From Archaeoglobaceae archaeon (GTDB lineage Archaea; Halobacteriota; Archaeoglobi; Archaeoglobales; Archaeoglobaceae): DNA of 48,305 bases. Numbering within the stretch: the stretch's first letter is position 1; every line of letters starts with the position of its first letter. Positions 24,286-31,431 of the stretch are shown here, piece by piece. The position numbers and the translations under genes were made by a program. The stretch is from assembly GCA_026985525.1 (NCBI GenBank), contig JALSQI010000022.1, positions 1-48,305 of the forward strand. The letters are read 5' to 3'. The notes under the pieces were generated by a model. It had not been told where the DNA came from. It made no database searches and was given only the letters and a program-made list of their open reading frames with translations.

Positions 24286-24602
24286 TGGAGGTGGGCACGC
24301 CTCGGGTCGACCCGCCTTACGGGGGGCGCCTCTGCCCAACTCCTCCTCCCCGCTACCCTGAAAGCGCCGAACGTTCGGGGTTAGCCTGCTCCCTTCCGGG
24401 CCTGAGCCGGTTCCCCCGACAAATACGGCGGACAGTCCCTCCGGACAGCCCAGCCGTAACCGCCGGCCCTTCAGGACGGGGACTCTACGGAGTCGGGCAG
24501 AGGAAGACCCCCCGCTTGACGGGCCTTCCCTCGGCTTCGGCCCCCGCATATCGACGGTTTCGGGTTACAGGGGACGCCGAACCCCCCGGCCTAGCCCACC
24601 AC
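24286..24602 (-). ncRNA. ffs: Signal recognition particle RNA (7S RNA)
   Basis: An extremely GC-rich segment of about 317 bases in AT-rich surroundings. Read on the minus strand it begins GGTGGGCTAGGCCGGGGGGT and contains CCTGTAACCCGAAACCG (Alu-domain loops) and, in the middle, GGCTCAGGCCCGGAAGGGAG followed by CAG, the conserved SRP54-binding S-domain. Its ends pair: GGTGGGC at 24600-24594 with GCCCACC at 24296-24290 (helix 1, typical of Archaea). A T-rich ATTTTAG follows the 3' end. The SRP RNA scaffolds SRP19 and SRP54 for co-translational targeting. The exact ends are estimated to within a few bases. Confidence 0.95.
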
Positions 24603-24616
24603 TTAAATTACTAACT

Positions 24617-24632
24617 TTCTATATTAATACTT
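24617..24632 (-). promoter_or_regulatory. SRP RNA promoter (TATA box)
   Basis: On the minus strand GAAAGTATTAATATAG lies about 25-30 bases before the predicted 5' end of the SRP RNA: GTATTAATAT is the TATA element and GAAA the TFB-recognition side. It overlaps the last codons of the aldolase gene, whose stop is at 24624, so the stable RNA promoter is embedded in a protein-coding 3' end. Confidence 0.55.
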
Positions 24633-25166
24633 TCTGCTGTAAAGTTTGTAAATTAGCTCGCATGAATGTTCTAAGTAACTTGCAAGTCTGTATGCTTCAT
24701 CTAAATCTTCTCCAGCACAGTATATACCGTGTCCTCTGACTAATACCGCTTTACTTTTCTTCAAAGATTCTGCTATAACTTTTGCACCTTTCAGAGTTGA
24801 ATAGGGTGCAATGACGATTTTCACTTCTCCTAAGAAGTGTCTCCCTTCTAAATCCATAGGAATAATAGAATTTCTTAGGAAAGAAAGAACTACCGCATAA
24901 ACACCATGGCAGTGTAGAACAGCTTTGTGATTGCTGTTTTTGTAAACTTCTCTGTGTATCAGCTGGTCACTCGAAGCTCTCCTATCGTATTCCTCACTAA
25001 AAATTTTTATTTTGACGAAAGAGTTTTCATCTACTTCGTCTAACATCACTCCGGTTTTAGTTATGTAGAATTCGTCTCCAACCCTAAAGCTCATATTACC
25101 ACTTGCACCGTCTATCAATCTCTGAACGAGTAACTTTTTCCCTATTGCTTTCGCTCTTTCAAACAT
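24624..25166 (-). CDS. Class II aldolase (L-fuculose-1-phosphate-aldolase type)
   Basis: A 180-residue zinc aldolase of the AraD/FucA family. GASGNMSFRVGDEF is the phosphate-binding N-terminal loop, HCHGVYAVVLSF provides two zinc His (HxH) and LVRGHGIYCAG the third; the acid/base Glu is in the IHREVYKN helix. Length matches the short archaeal members. In methanogens an enzyme of this kind makes lactaldehyde from fuculose 1-phosphate, which feeds lactate for coenzyme F420; the operon with cofE here supports that role, but ring-opened deoxyribose salvage is an alternative. Its ATG lies inside the end of the ATP-grasp gene (25-base overlap). Confidence 0.87.
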   Translation of the reverse strand: MFERAKAIGKKLLVQRLIDGASGNMSFRVGDEFYITKTGVMLDEVDENSFVKIKIFSEEYDRRASSDQLIHREVYKNSNHKAVLHCHGVYAVVLSFLRNSIIPMDLEGRHFLGEVKIVIAPYSTLKGAKVIAESLKKSKAVLVRGHGIYCAGEDLDEAYRLASYLEHSCELIYKLYSRKY

Positions 25167-26239
25167 CGCACCACCTCAAGAAATTTTTTTTCCAATACTT
25201 TTTTTCTAAGCTTAAACTTGTCCAAAACACGTCCGCTCGCGAGTATTGAGGTAATGGGTTGCTTAAACTCAAAAAACTCACCTCTCTCAGGTATATCTGC
25301 AAAAAAAGGGTTGCAAAGGGGTATGTATGCTTTAACTTTTTCCGGAGAGTAGTATATAGCTCTCAACCCCTGCGTTCTGAATTTTAATTTTGAATCTATT
25401 TTTGAGAAAAAAGCTTTGCAGTGTAGTTTGAAAAGGCTTTCACCAGTGCAGATCTCAAAGCTGTCAAGACTTCCGGGAATTCTTGGATTCAACTCCAATA
25501 CGTAAACATCGTCTGAAATTATGAGGTCTATGCCAGCACATCCTTCAACTTCAAACAAAAAGGCGACATCCTCAGCTATTTTTACCGCTTTTTTTAAGAG
25601 TTCATCGTTAACTTTAATGGAAAAAAGTTTCTCGGCGTAAAATTTGCTAAAAGGAGTTATATTTCCAGAATACAGGAAACCATCTGCGTTGACTTCACTC
25701 CATCCAGATAGAAGAATGTTAAGTGTTGACAAACAATTTTTTCCATCGCAGAGAATTGTTGCTGAGGAAGTTATACCTTCAACATATTCTTGAACTATGT
25801 ACTCCTTAGTTTTATCAATTTTATCGATTCTATTATTAGTCGTTACGTTAACTCCTCCTCCTCCAAAACGGGGTTTTAAAATAACCCTTTTACCTTCACA
25901 ACTCTTTAAAATTTCGGGACAATTTATTCCGGCTTTTTCCATTCTTCTGTAAAACTTAAGCTTATCTATGCAGCTATAATCGTAATTTCCGATCAATTCC
26001 ACTCTTTTCTTTAATTTACTTGCTTCGTATTCGAATCCAGTAGAGATTACAGCAGGAGCGTTGTAAGTTTCGCAAAACTCAACTACTTTTTCTACATCAC
26101 CTCTTTCAGCTCTATCTGAGTACAGCTTTAAGTCCCTATCTAAGTACTTAGCTACGCTGTAAACTTTAAATCCAGCTATTTTTGCAGACCTCGCGATATT
26201 TCTCGCATTTATTCCTGCTACAACTACTCTTTTCTCCAT
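25142..26239 (-). CDS. ATP-grasp ligase, substrate unknown
   Basis: 365 residues. An N-terminal Rossmann-like preATP-grasp domain (VVVAGINARNIARSAKIAGF) is followed by the ATP-grasp core: GKRVILKPRFGGGGVNV (lysine plus glycine-rich loop), YIVQEYVEG (adenine-binding hinge) and VYVLELNPRIPGS with the Mg-binding Glu/Asn. These enzymes join a carboxylate to an amine or thiol through an acyl phosphate. It resembles archaeal proteins annotated as predicted carboligases related to biotin carboxylase (COG2232-like). It overlaps cofE by 16 bases upstream and the aldolase by 25 downstream, so a role in F420 or another archaeal coenzyme (for example a glutamate or tyramine ligation) is plausible but unproved. 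Confidence 0.8.
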   Translation of the reverse strand: MEKRVVVAGINARNIARSAKIAGFKVYSVAKYLDRDLKLYSDRAERGDVEKVVEFCETYNAPAVISTGFEYEASKLKKRVELIGNYDYSCIDKLKFYRRMEKAGINCPEILKSCEGKRVILKPRFGGGGVNVTTNNRIDKIDKTKEYIVQEYVEGITSSATILCDGKNCLSTLNILLSGWSEVNADGFLYSGNITPFSKFYAEKLFSIKVNDELLKKAVKIAEDVAFLFEVEGCAGIDLIISDDVYVLELNPRIPGSLDSFEICTGESLFKLHCKAFFSKIDSKLKFRTQGLRAIYYSPEKVKAYIPLCNPFFADIPERGEFFEFKQPITSILASGRVLDKFKLRKKVLEKKFLEVVRCLKERKQ

Positions 26240-26973
26240 TCTTTTATTATCCTCCTTATGACGTCCTCATTATCATTTCTGTAAACTGAACTCATGTTAT
26301 CCTCTCCTTCGACTTTAAGCCCTCTAAAAACCACTGCGGGTATGGAGTCGTTACCTTCACCCATCAATAGGTTCGCAAAAGCTGCAATTTCATCAACTAT
26401 GCACTCCTGAGTTTTCTTCAAGTAATTTCCAAATAAATCAGGAGAGTTTATCCAGTTTCTCATAACCTTTATACCCGAACAACCAATAGCAAAGCCAGTA
26501 ACGCCTTTTCTGAAACACCTGCCGTTAGAATCTGTAATAATTACTGCCGTTTTAATTCCACGCTTTTCAATAGCCTTTCTAAGCATTTCCGCACTTTTAT
26601 CCGGATTCTCAGGTGGTAGAAGCAGACAGTTTTTTTCAACGTTGGATCTATCTATTCCCGCATTAACGCAGACATTTCCAAACTTGGCTTTAACGAGGAG
26701 AAACGGATAATCTAAGAGGACTTCGTCACTTTCTTCGAGAACTGCTTGAATAAACCTTGCGTCCTCTCCAAGCTTTTCCGCAATTTTAACAGCTTTTACA
26801 GATGGATCGTATTCATCCAACTTCCTAATTCTATCTTCAGCTCTCGAAATTATTGAAGAACAAACGGCAATTACGTCACCATCCTTAGCAAATCTGCATA
26901 TATGTTTAGCTATTTCATCAAAGCTCGTTTTCTCTAACCTTGGAAACTTTACCGCTATAACTTCGACTTTCAC
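26224..26973 (-). CDS. cofE: Coenzyme F420:L-glutamate ligase
   Basis: Adds the glutamate residues to F420-0 in a GTP-dependent reaction. The sequence follows the known Archaeoglobus CofE closely as I recall it: FLLVKAKFGNVCVNAGID, VIITDSNGRCFRKGVTGFAIG and DEIAAFANLLMGEG are the GTP/metal and substrate signatures. The start is GTG 26973, giving VKVEVIAVKFPRLEK at the N-terminus and 249 residues as in the family; longer in-frame starts add a non-conserved tail that overlaps the promoter. No ribosome site precedes it, so it is probably leaderless. It is the first gene of the cofE / ATP-grasp / aldolase operon. Confidence 0.95.
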   Translation of the reverse strand: MKVEVIAVKFPRLEKTSFDEIAKHICRFAKDGDVIAVCSSIISRAEDRIRKLDEYDPSVKAVKIAEKLGEDARFIQAVLEESDEVLLDYPFLLVKAKFGNVCVNAGIDRSNVEKNCLLLPPENPDKSAEMLRKAIEKRGIKTAVIITDSNGRCFRKGVTGFAIGCSGIKVMRNWINSPDLFGNYLKKTQECIVDEIAAFANLLMGEGNDSIPAVVFRGLKVEGEDNMSSVYRNDNEDVIRRIIKEWRKE

Positions 26974-27034
26974 GATTTTTAAAGATGTAAACCGAAAATA
27001 ATGTTTTTGGCTGAATGGATACTTAAACAAAAAA

Positions 27035-29719
27035 TTAAAGTAATTCTTCCAGTTTTTTCTTCAAAGCTTCTAAGTCCGGCTCTCTGTTTAAAATTCCCTG
27101 AGCTATATCCTTTTTACCTCCACCACTGCCACCGAACATTTCTATTGCCACTCTCGCTATTTCTTTTGCATCTACGTCTTTACCTGAAAAAGCGACGAAC
27201 CTTGTTTTACCGTTTTTACCATCCTTGCATATTAAAATACCGGCATATCCCATTTCCGCCAGCTTTAAAGCGAGCTTTTGAACTTCACTCGAATTAGCGA
27301 ATTCGACTACGAAACCCTTAGCTTTCTCCGCTATCCTCTCAGCTTTAATTTTTGAGATTTCTTCGATTAGTTTCTCTATCGTCTTTTTCTGTTCTTTCCA
27401 TTCTTCGAAGAATCTCTTAACGGTCTTTGGTAGTAACTTTTCCTCCACTCTGAGTATTCCGCTAGCTTCTTTCAACAACTTCTCTTTTTCTGCAATTTGT
27501 TCTAAAGCAGCCTCTCCAGCAGCGAATTCAAACCTTATAACTCCGTCCTGTATGGATTCAACTCTCAACAGCTTTATAACTCCTATTTCACCCGTAGAGT
27601 TGCAGTGAGTTCCCGCACAAGCTTGAACGTCATCTCCAACTTTAACTACTCTTATCTCCCTTCCCGGGGGTACGCCACCCTGATACAGTTTAAACCCGTA
27701 CTTCTTCTCCGCCTCAATTCTGTCCATCCACATGCACTCTACTGGCTTATTTGCCATAACTTCTCTGTTTGCCAACAACTCTATCTCTCTTATCTGCTCT
27801 TCACTCGGCTTTACGTAGTGAGTTACGTCAAGCCTCGCTTTGCTAAATTCTTTCTTCGCCCCAGCCTGCCAGATGTGGTTTCCAAGAACTCTTCTTATTG
27901 AGTGGAGTAAAACGTGAGTGGCGGAGTGGTGCCTCGTGTGCCTTAGCCTTCTTTCTCTATCGACAATGCCTTTAACGATATCTCCAACTTTCCCATCGAA
28001 CTCTTTCAATACGTGGGCAATTACTCCATTTTCGATGAACACGTCAATAACTTCAAATTTCTTGTTGTTTACGATTATCTGCCCCCTATCGCAGTCCTGT
28101 CCCCCACTTTCGGGATAAAATGCTGTCCTGTCTAAGATTAAGTAGTAGTAATCGTTTCTTTCAATTCCAACAACCTTAGCCTCAAATTCAAATATAGGCG
28201 AGTAGTAAAGTTTTTTCGTTTCAGGATACTCAGCTTTAAGTTTTTTCTCCCTCTTTTTCTTTTCCGCTTTCGAGTGCTTTTCTGCAAGTTTTGAGTAGAA
28301 GTTATCCGATTCCACTTCAACTCCTTTTTCCTTTGCTATCTTTATTGCCATTTCTGGCGGTATTCCATGCGAATCGTAAAGCTCCACGAGGTCATCTACA
28401 CTTAGCCTCTTTTTTCTGCAAACAATTCTTTCAACTATTCTTTCACCTCTCTTTATCGTAGCTTTGTACCTCTTTTCTTCGAGTTCAAGTATTTCCTGAA
28501 TAGTTTCCATTGGAACTTCGAAATCAAAACTTTTCATCAACTCTCTGTGAAGGCTTAAAATTTCAAAGAGTGGTATTGAAAGTTCAAGCTCTTCTGCCAA
28601 TCTGAGAGCTCTTCTTATCATTAACCTTGCTAAGTATCCCCCTCCAGCATTTGATGGTATCAATCCGTCTCCAAGCATGAAGAGTATAGCTCTTGAGTGA
28701 TCTGCGAGAGCGTAAACTTTTTCGAGAGGAGTTACAATTCTAAGCAACTCTTCAACTTCAATGCCTATTTTGTCGGCTGTTTTTCTTCTAAACTCATCGA
28801 GAGCTTTTCCTTTGAGAGAACCCATAACTCCAGCTAACTTAGAACTCTCTGCGATTATTTCTTTTACTTGTTCATCTTTGCGGGAAAATTCTATGTTACT
28901 GTTATCTTCTATTTTATCTAAGACTGAAGGAAATACAGCATCGTAAACGGTTGGTGTTCCCTGACTCGCCCAAACGAACCTCTCAAGTCCGTATCCAGTG
29001 TCAACGATGTATCTATCCATTTTTCTGTATCTCTCACCTTTTATGACAATATCCCCCTTCTCATCAGCGACGAGGTTCATAAAAACAAGGGTTGCGAGTT
29101 CAATTCCACTAACTATCGCTTCCAAGCAAGGACCTGCGTTACCACCTCCAGCCCAAGGCTCTTCTTTGTAAACTATATCTTCCACTTTAACTCCAAGCTC
29201 TTCGAGTAGCTCTGTACATAGCTTAACTGTTTCACTTTTCCAGTATATTTTCTCTTCTTTGCTGTTGAAAGCGTGATGTGCCATCATTTCGAATAGAGTT
29301 AAGTGCCTTCCAGTCTTTCCAACTGAATCTAAGTCGTCCATTCTTATGCAAGGCTGAGAAATCGTTAAAGGATTGGCTGGAGGTGGGACTACTCCAGAAG
29401 TTACAAAAGGCTGAAAATCTGCTATGGATGCGATTGTCAAGTATATATCGTCTCTCCACCTCGCAACTACGGGGTATCTGTTTATTCTCCTGTGTCCTCT
29501 CTTTTCAAAGAAAGAAAGGTACTTTTCTCTCATTTCGTCTAAGGTGTATTTTCTGCTGAAGACTGGATTTCCTATGAATTCGTAACTTCCGCAAGGAGGA
29601 TCGCCGCAAATATCTCTATCCCCAATAGTCCAGAAGTACTTTCCACATTTGGGACACTTTTTTCTACGGAAACCCCTCTCCCTGAGGTAATCTATGTCAA
29701 GGTATTCTTCCTCAAGCAT
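27035..29719 (-). CDS. alaS: Alanyl-tRNA synthetase
   Basis: Charges tRNA-Ala. The 894-residue enzyme has the archaeal N-terminal zinc segment (KKCPKCGKYFWTIGDRDICG), motif 1-2 region (ARWRDDIYLTIASIADFQP, RMDDLDSVGKTGRHLTLFEMM), motif 3 (DTGYGLERFVWASQGTP), the editing domain with zinc ligands HHSATHVLLH and CAGTHC, and a C-terminal DHHA1-type domain with glycine-rich GGSGGGKKD. It matches the structurally known Archaeoglobus enzyme in all remembered landmarks. ATG 29719 was used; a TTG five codons upstream is in frame without support. Two tandem promoter repeats precede it. Confidence 0.97.
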   Translation of the reverse strand: MLEEEYLDIDYLRERGFRRKKCPKCGKYFWTIGDRDICGDPPCGSYEFIGNPVFSRKYTLDEMREKYLSFFEKRGHRRINRYPVVARWRDDIYLTIASIADFQPFVTSGVVPPPANPLTISQPCIRMDDLDSVGKTGRHLTLFEMMAHHAFNSKEEKIYWKSETVKLCTELLEELGVKVEDIVYKEEPWAGGGNAGPCLEAIVSGIELATLVFMNLVADEKGDIVIKGERYRKMDRYIVDTGYGLERFVWASQGTPTVYDAVFPSVLDKIEDNSNIEFSRKDEQVKEIIAESSKLAGVMGSLKGKALDEFRRKTADKIGIEVEELLRIVTPLEKVYALADHSRAILFMLGDGLIPSNAGGGYLARLMIRRALRLAEELELSIPLFEILSLHRELMKSFDFEVPMETIQEILELEEKRYKATIKRGERIVERIVCRKKRLSVDDLVELYDSHGIPPEMAIKIAKEKGVEVESDNFYSKLAEKHSKAEKKKREKKLKAEYPETKKLYYSPIFEFEAKVVGIERNDYYYLILDRTAFYPESGGQDCDRGQIIVNNKKFEVIDVFIENGVIAHVLKEFDGKVGDIVKGIVDRERRLRHTRHHSATHVLLHSIRRVLGNHIWQAGAKKEFSKARLDVTHYVKPSEEQIREIELLANREVMANKPVECMWMDRIEAEKKYGFKLYQGGVPPGREIRVVKVGDDVQACAGTHCNSTGEIGVIKLLRVESIQDGVIRFEFAAGEAALEQIAEKEKLLKEASGILRVEEKLLPKTVKRFFEEWKEQKKTIEKLIEEISKIKAERIAEKAKGFVVEFANSSEVQKLALKLAEMGYAGILICKDGKNGKTRFVAFSGKDVDAKEIARVAIEMFGGSGGGKKDIAQGILNREPDLEALKKKLEELL

Positions 29720-29740
29720 CGTTTGGAGTTGCAAAAAAGA

Positions 29741-29769: not shown

Positions 29770-31431
29770 CTAAGTCGAGTTATAAAGTTCAACTAACTTC
29801 TTTCCAGCTTCAGTTATACTTCTCCTTCCGAGCAATCCAGTAACTCTGAGTAAAGTCAGAGCCTTCTTTATTTCTTCATCGCTAAGACTTAACCTCTTCT
29901 TTATGAAGTCAACTTCGTCTTGTTTGTAATTTCTCTCTTCTGTGCTTTCCTTCCACATCTTGTTAAATATTTGCAAGTTCTCGTGAATTACTTTTAAAAC
30001 GTTGTAAGTCGTCGGAGTTACTGGAAACTTTACTGCAAGCATCTCCTCCGTTTTTGCAAGTTCTACGACATTTTTTACTTCTCTGCCTAATTCAGTTAAC
30101 CCTACTGTCCCGTTTTGCAATTCTTCCACTAAACCCTTTGCCTCACATTCGCATATAGCTACGCTTATTTCTTCCAGCTCTTTTCTGTGTACATACTTCC
30201 TCGGCATTTTTGTTAGAAGGATAACGTCGTACTTCGTTAAAAACGGTTTTCTCTTATAGTTTTTTGCAAAATCTATCACAGCTTTACCCTTAGCGGTAAT
30301 TCCATTTTTTATAAGTCCCTCCTCTTTTGCTTTTCTAACCCACTCAACAGCTGGCACGTCGTTGCTCAAAGCGAAAGTTATTGCTTTAACACCATCACTC
30401 GTGAAGCAACCCATAGAAGCCAGTTTTTTCCATTCAGTAAGCCAATAAGTGTCCTTACCTTCCATGTACTTTCTTCTAACGATTTCTTTGGATTCAAGCA
30501 AGTGAAGTAAAGCTCCCAAGTCTTCTACTTTTGCTCTTTTCTCTATTTCACTGTATGTCGGCAAAATCGAAGGTGTATTTTTGTGTATTCTTTCGATTTC
30601 CGCGATTGCGTTTATAACCCTTATTTCTTCATCAAGCAAGTAAACTGGAGATAGTCTTTTCTTTTCAACTCCCATTGCGTCGTAAGTTTCGAGAGCGAGC
30701 TTTCCTAACTCTGTTACCCCACCATCCCACATTCCTTTTTCTTCGACTTTTTTTATTACTTCCTCTTTACCTCTTTCACTTTTCAGCAATTCTGCTTCTT
30801 CTGCTGAAAGAATTACTGAACCACTGACGTAATTTGAAAGTTTAAGTGCAAGTCTTGCAGCTTCAGTTATGGAAAACGCTTTTCCACTAGTAAATGGGGA
30901 AATTAAAAGCATTCTCATAGCTTGAAGTGCGTTGAGAACATTATCACCTACTCCAACTCTATCTTTGATAGCTACGAGTTCTTTGATTTCTCCTACTTCT
31001 GGTAAAACGCTTAGGAGTTTTAGTATATCTTGAGTTACGTATAGCATAGGATGAGTTTCTTTGTATATCTCCAGTAATTTTTTACCCGACTCGTTAACTT
31101 TTCCATTTTCAGCTAAGCCCCTTTCTTCGAGTGTTTCACTCCAGTTCTCTAATAAATAATCTGTTTTTATACCAAGTTCTACCATTTTTATTATTTCCGT
31201 ATCGGCGAATATCTCTGGTAAATCCTCTATTTTCTTTTTTAGTCCTGTGATAAGCTCTACTAACTTTTTACCGCTCTCGCTCAGCTTGAAATCAGAATCT
31301 ACAAATCCAAGTATGTAAAGTTCAAGCAAACACGTGTCAAATTCTTCGGGAAATGCTCTCTCAGTCTCCTCCTTAGTTTTCGAGTTAGCTATATAAGACA
31401 GTATTTCTAAATGCCTTTTCTTTAAGAACAT
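29770..31431 (-). CDS. DUF505-like protein made of repeated winged helices
   Basis: 553 residues, cytoplasmic, no catalytic motif seen. At least four segments end in the same way: SESGKKLVELI, NESGKKLLEIY, TELGKLALETY, TAKGKAVIDFA, TELGREVKNVV and TEAGKKLVELY are the 'wing' and last helix of repeated winged-helix units, each preceded by a helix-turn-helix-like part. This is the layout I associate with the archaeal family DUF505, of unknown function. ATG 31431 lies ten bases inside the end of the prefoldin-beta-like gene, so it is coupled to that gene. A role in protein-protein or nucleic-acid contacts together with the prefoldin-like pair is inferred from the operon only. Confidence 0.75.
   Translation of the reverse strand: MFLKKRHLEILSYIANSKTKEETERAFPEEFDTCLLELYILGFVDSDFKLSESGKKLVELITGLKKKIEDLPEIFADTEIIKMVELGIKTDYLLENWSETLEERGLAENGKVNESGKKLLEIYKETHPMLYVTQDILKLLSVLPEVGEIKELVAIKDRVGVGDNVLNALQAMRMLLISPFTSGKAFSITEAARLALKLSNYVSGSVILSAEEAELLKSERGKEEVIKKVEEKGMWDGGVTELGKLALETYDAMGVEKKRLSPVYLLDEEIRVINAIAEIERIHKNTPSILPTYSEIEKRAKVEDLGALLHLLESKEIVRRKYMEGKDTYWLTEWKKLASMGCFTSDGVKAITFALSNDVPAVEWVRKAKEEGLIKNGITAKGKAVIDFAKNYKRKPFLTKYDVILLTKMPRKYVHRKELEEISVAICECEAKGLVEELQNGTVGLTELGREVKNVVELAKTEEMLAVKFPVTPTTYNVLKVIHENLQIFNKMWKESTEERNYKQDEVDFIKKRLSLSDEEIKKALTLLRVTGLLGRRSITEAGKKLVELYNST

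Follow-up and report, generated by a model that had tools for sequence, protein, structure and literature searches.

In methanogenesis and in the archaeal Wood-Ljungdahl pathway, the first carrier of CO2 is methanofuran (MFR). The enzymes MfnA-F make a methanofuran core with one glutamate, whereby MfnD joins tyramine to this first glutamate and MfnF is responsible for the coupling to the furan. Archaeal MFR occurs as five types with different side chains, at least two γ-glutamates being common to all, and in 2021 the archaeal enzymes for the additional glutamates were said to remain to be identified (PMC8141765). The portion consulted of a 2024 paper on MfnB (PMC11365854) describes enzymes only up to MfnF, and no archaeal gene assigned to this glutamate step was found in the titles and abstracts of the open-access literature searched. 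Here we describe an ATP-grasp gene at positions 25142-26239, on the minus strand, of a 48,305-nucleotide stretch of a contig from an Archaeoglobaceae archaeon (JALSQI010000022.1, assembly GCA_026985525.1; the whole of this stretch is referred to as the window). From sequence comparison, the family of its 365 aa product is a strong candidate for the archaeal methanofuran glutamate ligase.

The closest described system is bacterial. Deletion of myfA (orfY) in Methylobacillus flagellatus leads to loss of methylofuran (MYFR) and accumulation of MYFR-Glu1 and MYFR-Glu0; the authors proposed that MyfA adds the second glutamate, and part of MyfA is similar to archaeal MfnD (PMC8141765). In six annotated plasmid records (Azospirillum oryzae, A. 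brasilense, Azoarcus, Thiodictyon, Phyllobacterium and Aquabacterium), the methylotroph 'archaeal-like' cluster contains, in this order, the genes for β-RFAP synthase, mtdB, an ATP-grasp gene and mch. These are followed by a RimK ligase annotation in five of the six records (a hypothetical protein in Azoarcus), and then by a triphosphoribosyl-dephospho-CoA synthase-like gene. Two ATP-grasp genes are listed among the cluster's unknowns in PMC8141765, of which MyfB is the MptN/RimK-like one; we therefore infer from the gene order that the plasmid ATP-grasp gene is myfA. Orf17 of M. extorquens was considered as an ATP-grasp protein and set aside, being HisA/HisF-like instead (PMC8141765). Several Streptomyces plasmids (records H1-H11) carry MfnB homologues that are as much as 48.5% identical to their archaeal relative.

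We consider it probable that the archaeal ATP-grasp enzyme adds the second γ-glutamate of methanofuran, as the counterpart of MyfA. The enzyme would act after MfnD and MfnF, phosphorylating the γ-carboxylate of glutamate with ATP to give an acyl phosphate. The glutamate already present in the MFR core (APMF-Glu) would then attack this intermediate through its free amino group to yield MFR-Glu2. This direction of addition is suggested by the γ-linked chain of archaeal MFR and by the proposal of the MyfA authors. All three elements of this proposal (the activity, the precise substrate, and addition of the second glutamate, not a later one) are inferred from the comparisons set out below.

Distribution and linkage of the ATP-grasp gene

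A total of 176 genomes of at least 90% completeness were surveyed, all from the archaeal phylum of the window. The ATP-grasp gene was scored as present at E<1e-80 against profile A2, an alignment of 37 family members. Matches to this profile fall into two clear classes, consisting of full-length matches (weakest 3e-84) and other ATP-grasp proteins (best 5e-43), and place the gene in 135 genomes with 41 lacking it. MfnB, an early methanofuran enzyme, is found in 136 genomes; of the 40 MfnB-negative genomes, 20 were named by the search and 20 were taken as absent from the 136-genome match list. The gene and MfnB occur together in 132 genomes and are both missing from 37, with three genomes containing the gene only and four MfnB only (Fisher p 6e-30, kinship ignored). 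The gene is distributed in the manner of MfnB and MfnF.

With 132 of the 136 MfnB-positive genomes containing it, the gene suits a universal second glutamate better than side-chain parts that vary between methanofurans. The same distribution and linkage would also accompany an enzyme that adds a third or later glutamate, or the terminal acid of only some methanofurans, and MyfA is too distant to fix the exact acceptor. However, a near-universal gene is less easily matched with side chains that vary over the five MFR types (PMC8141765), and we regard such a role as unlikely.

The original prediction made the ATP-grasp protein a candidate for an unassigned step of F420 or another archaeal coenzyme. 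CofE, the F420-0:L-glutamate ligase, was detected in 175 of the 176 genomes (173 above the cut-off). Of the 41 genomes without the ATP-grasp gene, 40 encode CofE, and this is not the distribution of an F420 enzyme. To compare gene neighbourhoods, 37 loci were used, 24 from Archaeoglobaceae (the window and 23 others) and 13 from other families of the same phylum. In 20 of the 24 Archaeoglobaceae loci cofE adjoins the ATP-grasp gene on the same strand, as might be expected if, for example, it encoded a further ligase adding glutamate to the F420 tail. In the 13 loci outside the family, however, cofE is never found near the gene, the counterpart sits in bacterial methylofuran clusters, and the known α-glutamate ligase of F420 is CofF (PMC8498797, in the part consulted). 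A role in F420 synthesis is therefore rejected as very improbable, because the distribution does not follow CofE. What stands is the wider half of the prediction, with methanofuran the most likely of the other coenzymes.

Tetrahydromethanopterin (H4MPT) serves the same pathway as MFR, and the bacterial MyfA gene lies between mtdB and mch, such that a role in H4MPT synthesis or modification also has to be weighed. Mch (in 174 of 176 genomes) and β-RFAP synthase (in 27 of the 28 genomes searched for it) were tried as broad H4MPT markers, and Haloferax volcanii matches both; they do not discriminate broadly and are informative only for the Archaeoglobaceae genome G070. This genome (2 contigs, 99% complete) encodes CofE (4e-101), Mch (5e-99) and β-RFAP synthase (1e-129), whereas profile searches found MfnB, MfnF and the ATP-grasp gene all to be absent from it. 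G016, from the same genus, has all six. MfnB and the ATP-grasp gene are likewise missing from G187, a further member of the genus at 72% completeness. The retention of F420 and H4MPT markers in G070 without those of methanofuran suggests that the ATP-grasp gene was lost alongside methanofuran synthesis. Given that the nearest partners of the gene in G016 are mfnF and mfnB, and that methylofuran is lost on deletion of MyfA (PMC8141765), we consider a function in H4MPT synthesis improbable, and it was rejected on the gene content of G070. One Ftr-family match each was observed in the MfnB-less genomes G070, G036 and G046, with scores like those of the weaker second copy in other genomes.

Linkage to genes of the one-carbon (C1) pathway is most extensive in G016, where the ATP-grasp gene is divergent to mfnF-mfnB and cofE is located on another contig. 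The mfnF gene was assigned with TIGR03123 (299 bits, cut-off 244), with the stricter NF040623 giving 238 vs 520 bits, and mfnB was assigned by PF04476. The island (G016:C1:82000-131000, L183-L185) holds mfnF, mfnB, a HisA/F-related protein and the ATP-grasp gene on one contig, in addition to ftr, mer, fwdCABD, cdhA, mtd and mfnD, these being located no more than ~37 kb from the ATP-grasp gene. The HisA/F-related protein (TIGR00734, 179 bits, just under the cut-off) is similar to Orf17, a protein that bacteria require for methylofuran. In G001, the ATP-grasp gene is ~2.2 kb from fwdA, on the opposite strand. The order in G032 is trm56, ATP-grasp gene, tfe, two ferredoxin-like open reading frames (ORFs), fwdD-like, fwdB, fwdA and fwdC-like (family assignments were checked for trm56, tfe, fwdB and fwdA, and the other ORFs read by eye).

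Relation to MyfA and MfnD

The profile of the archaeal family (353 positions) matches all 11 MyfA sequences over their full length, from positions 4-7 to 329-349, whereas the archaeal MfnD sequences are matched over the core only (from 16-83 to 246-280). A model of the N-terminal 90 residues detects 11 of 11 MyfA and 0 of 18 MfnD sequences; for the C-terminal 70 residues the corresponding numbers are 9 of 11 and 0 of 18. The best E-value obtained by these terminal-segment models among 500 decoys was 0.93. The collinear match with MyfA includes R13, D34, D36, G68 and E70 in the N-terminal segment and D315, P317 and P328 in the C-terminal segment, which, together with H273, are common to most or all MyfA sequences and not to most MfnD sequences. 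MfnD shares with the archaeal family the ATP-grasp_3 core and the coenzyme pathway, but for the most part has no C-terminal segment (mean coverage 0.38 vs 0.99). MyfA differs from the archaeal gene in its gene neighbourhood. The family of the ATP-grasp gene we take to be COG2232. No relatives were found in viral contigs.

A model built on MyfA scores the ATP-grasp gene above MfnD in all 10 archaeal genomes in which the two were compared, with means over all sequences of 135 and 45 bits, respectively. P. phymatum is the one bacterial genome in the comparison that encodes the two proteins; here the archaeal profile gives 131.6 bits for MyfA and 77.2 bits for the MfnD-like protein, while with the MfnD model the latter scores higher (129 vs 55 bits). 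A separate MfnD-like paralogue is also present in species named by PMC8141765. In an unrooted tree, MfnD is split from the ATP-grasp gene and MyfA with support 100/100. A topology with MyfA nested inside the archaeal family was not kept, the archaeal family as one group being equally good (approximately unbiased test, p-AU 0.556). With MfnD as the alternative, MyfA is hence the best profile match in both directions; we claim this and a shared architecture, short of proven orthology.

The ATP-grasp protein itself was rejected as an MfnD, as it scores 36.8 bits with NF040722 (cut-off 400) and a separate MfnD-like paralogue is present in the same genome. The latter scores 154 bits, indicating that the cut-off is strict for this lineage. 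Both this low score and a core closer to MfnD would be in line with the ATP-grasp enzyme being the true tyramine ligase that adds the first glutamate, MfnD doing something else in the lineage. However, the MfnD-like proteins form their own group, which is also represented in G000 (L150) and G016 (L185, beside mtd), and they fit the MfnD model far better (154 and 163 vs 37 bits), which leaves this possibility with very little credence.

An AlphaFold2 model of the window protein (predicted local distance difference test, pLDDT, 93.4; predicted template modelling score, pTM, 0.91) can be superposed over residues 1-357 on complete ATP-grasp enzymes, with Z 27-30 among the matches listed (best 50) and Z 29-30 for PurT, biotin carboxylase and PylC. 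The resemblance to PylC (3-methylornithine--L-lysine ligase) covers the near-whole-chain fold (Z 29.2, root-mean-square deviation 3.0, 312 aligned residues), but the identity is 18% and PylC is tied with PurT, biotin carboxylase and GAR synthetase. With many ATP-grasp enzymes tied in this way, the fold gives no substrate, although it supports an ATP-dependent carboxylate ligase. MfnD is not among the matches listed (best 50) in either of the fold searches. By sequence, the nearest solved chain is 3df7 (E 5.6e-26), a 'putative ATP-grasp superfamily protein' that may be an MfnD. Residues K93, K122, G128-G129, E249, N251 and R253 are invariant in 37 of 37 family members, and presumably have the catalytic roles of their equivalents in the ATP-grasp superfamily.

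Several observations weigh against the methanofuran assignment. Seven of the 176 genomes are discordant and are counted as unexplained. Four of these have MfnB only, in assemblies of 90-400 contigs each; G186, G080 and G105 have MfnB and MfnF yet lack the ATP-grasp gene, while G097 also lacks MfnF. The three gene-only genomes (G123, G160 and G164) have no MfnB, but MfnF is present in all three, and G123 is 99% complete. Assembly gaps are a possible cause of the seven discordances. Most of the joint absences probably belong to one clade, the haloarchaea, as judged from the families and from a Haloferax volcanii control in which CofE is present and MfnB absent (the ATP-grasp gene was not tested there). 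This makes the independent events few, in a presence/absence survey of a single archaeal phylum. Direct links to MFR or fwd genes occur in only 3 of the 37 loci, so linkage serves as supporting evidence only.

The sequence comparisons also contain conflicting signals. A tree rooted with carbamoyl-phosphate synthase weakly joins the ATP-grasp gene to MfnD (60/78), with the grouping of gene and MyfA not rejected (p-AU 0.237); this tree contained 26 of the 52 archaeal sequences, and the bacterial MfnD-like sequence is on a very long branch. Taken by itself, the ATP-grasp core favours MfnD, with scores reaching 129 bits as opposed to 72 bits for MyfA. Against the MfnD model, the archaeal gene averages 112 bits and MyfA 41 bits. 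MyfA and MfnD sequences are, on average, 20% and 22% identical to the window protein, respectively. Lys93, invariant in both the archaeal family and MfnD, aligns with Pro in 11 of 11 MyfA sequences. Even in the bacterial system the exact step is uncertain, given that the Glu0 form also accumulates in the myfA mutant (PMC8141765). For every archaeal member the role is a prediction from sequence and gene context.

The cofE/ATP-grasp locus and its neighbours

In the window, the gene order on the minus strand is alaS, cofE, ATP-grasp gene, aldolase gene and signal recognition particle (SRP) RNA. The ORFs, the DNA and the family scores confirm the three central genes as originally placed and joined by overlaps, with 16 nt shared between cofE and the ATP-grasp gene and 25 nt between the ATP-grasp gene and the aldolase gene. 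The ATP-grasp gene, the proposed archaeal MyfA counterpart and methanofuran γ-glutamate ligase, starts with ATG and its product belongs to the ATP-grasp superfamily (PF02655, 94.1 bits; cut-off 23.2). The class II aldolase/adducin-type gene (24624-25166, minus strand; 180 aa) also starts with ATG (PF00596, 133.9 bits). Both have a clear ribosome-binding site, GGAGGATAA preceding the ATG of the ATP-grasp gene and GAGGTGG that of the aldolase gene. The cofE gene (26224-26973, minus strand) encodes a protein scoring 272.6 bits with TIGR01916 (cut-off 180.65). Its ORF can be extended to 26224-27030, with TTG at 27030; as TIGR01916 aligns from residue 23 of this longer ORF, the GTG at 26973 given in the original prediction is the better start.

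Upstream in the gene string is alaS, encoding alanyl-tRNA synthetase (27035-29734, minus strand; TIGR03683, 1235 bits), preceded by a gene for a DUF505 protein (29770-31431, minus strand; PF04458, 364 bits), which among the stretches compared recurs only in G002, of the same genus. The archaeal SRP RNA gene (24289-24601, minus strand; RF01857, 234.5 bits) starts 22 bases past the stop codon of the aldolase gene.

The adjacency of cofE and the ATP-grasp gene in Archaeoglobaceae is more than chance. The two ORFs overlap in 16 of the 20 adjacent pairs, and one of the four loci without the pairing (L034) is at a contig edge. In 17 of the 37 loci, no more than 6 kb separates alaS from the ATP-grasp gene. 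CofE and the ATP-grasp protein belong to different families (PF01996 vs PF02655) and differ in distribution, but both are proposed to add γ-glutamates to a coenzyme of the C1 pathway; two enzymes that build glutamate tails on coenzymes of one pathway may thus have been paired locally, rather than the adjacency being a sign of activity on F420. Outside Archaeoglobaceae, tfe (transcription factor E) is found directly after the ATP-grasp gene or one gene on in 12 of the 13 loci, and trm56 directly before it in 6 of those 12 (L056-L067). These surroundings form a stable housekeeping neighbourhood with no obvious functional link. Conservation of the three-gene arrangement, one of the checks suggested at the outset, is consequently confined to the cofE pair within Archaeoglobaceae, the aldolase gene adjoining the ATP-grasp gene in only 4 of the 37 loci.

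The aldolase is a lineage-specific neighbour of the ATP-grasp gene. Its HCHG...RGHG pattern is intact, the residues of which we take to bind the metal. The best NCBIfam match is PRK08660 (177.6 bits, under the cut-off of 203). It had been suggested that the enzyme provides lactaldehyde for the lactate of F420, as in methanogens; this was not borne out, since the model of the methanogen L-fuculose phosphate aldolase (NF040649) gives 77.4 bits vs a cut-off of 250 and the nearest family of the aldolase is missing from 42 of the 176 genomes. The family occurs in 134 genomes (E<=1e-30), compared with 175 for CofE, and is present in G070, G036 and G046, all of which lack MfnB. Its distribution strictly follows neither F420 nor methanofuran. 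In two genomes, an aldolase-family gene is arranged tail to tail with mfnF (G160:C210:5184-6611 and G164:C13:1609-3036).

Implications for methanofuran biosynthesis

We judge the odds to be somewhat in favour of the family being the long-missing archaeal methanofuran γ-glutamate ligase and an ancestral partner of MfnD. If so, the pair of MfnD and MyfA-like enzymes would predate either the split of the pathway or its transfer between archaea and methylotrophic bacteria, and the common core of methanofuran biosynthesis would be complete. Many archaeal annotations would change from 'ATP-grasp protein' to a named coenzyme step, and this step of methanofuran synthesis would be open to test with a single purified protein and by knocking out the gene in tractable methanogens. 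The locus would further illustrate that a conserved, overlapping gene neighbour such as cofE can point to the wrong coenzyme.

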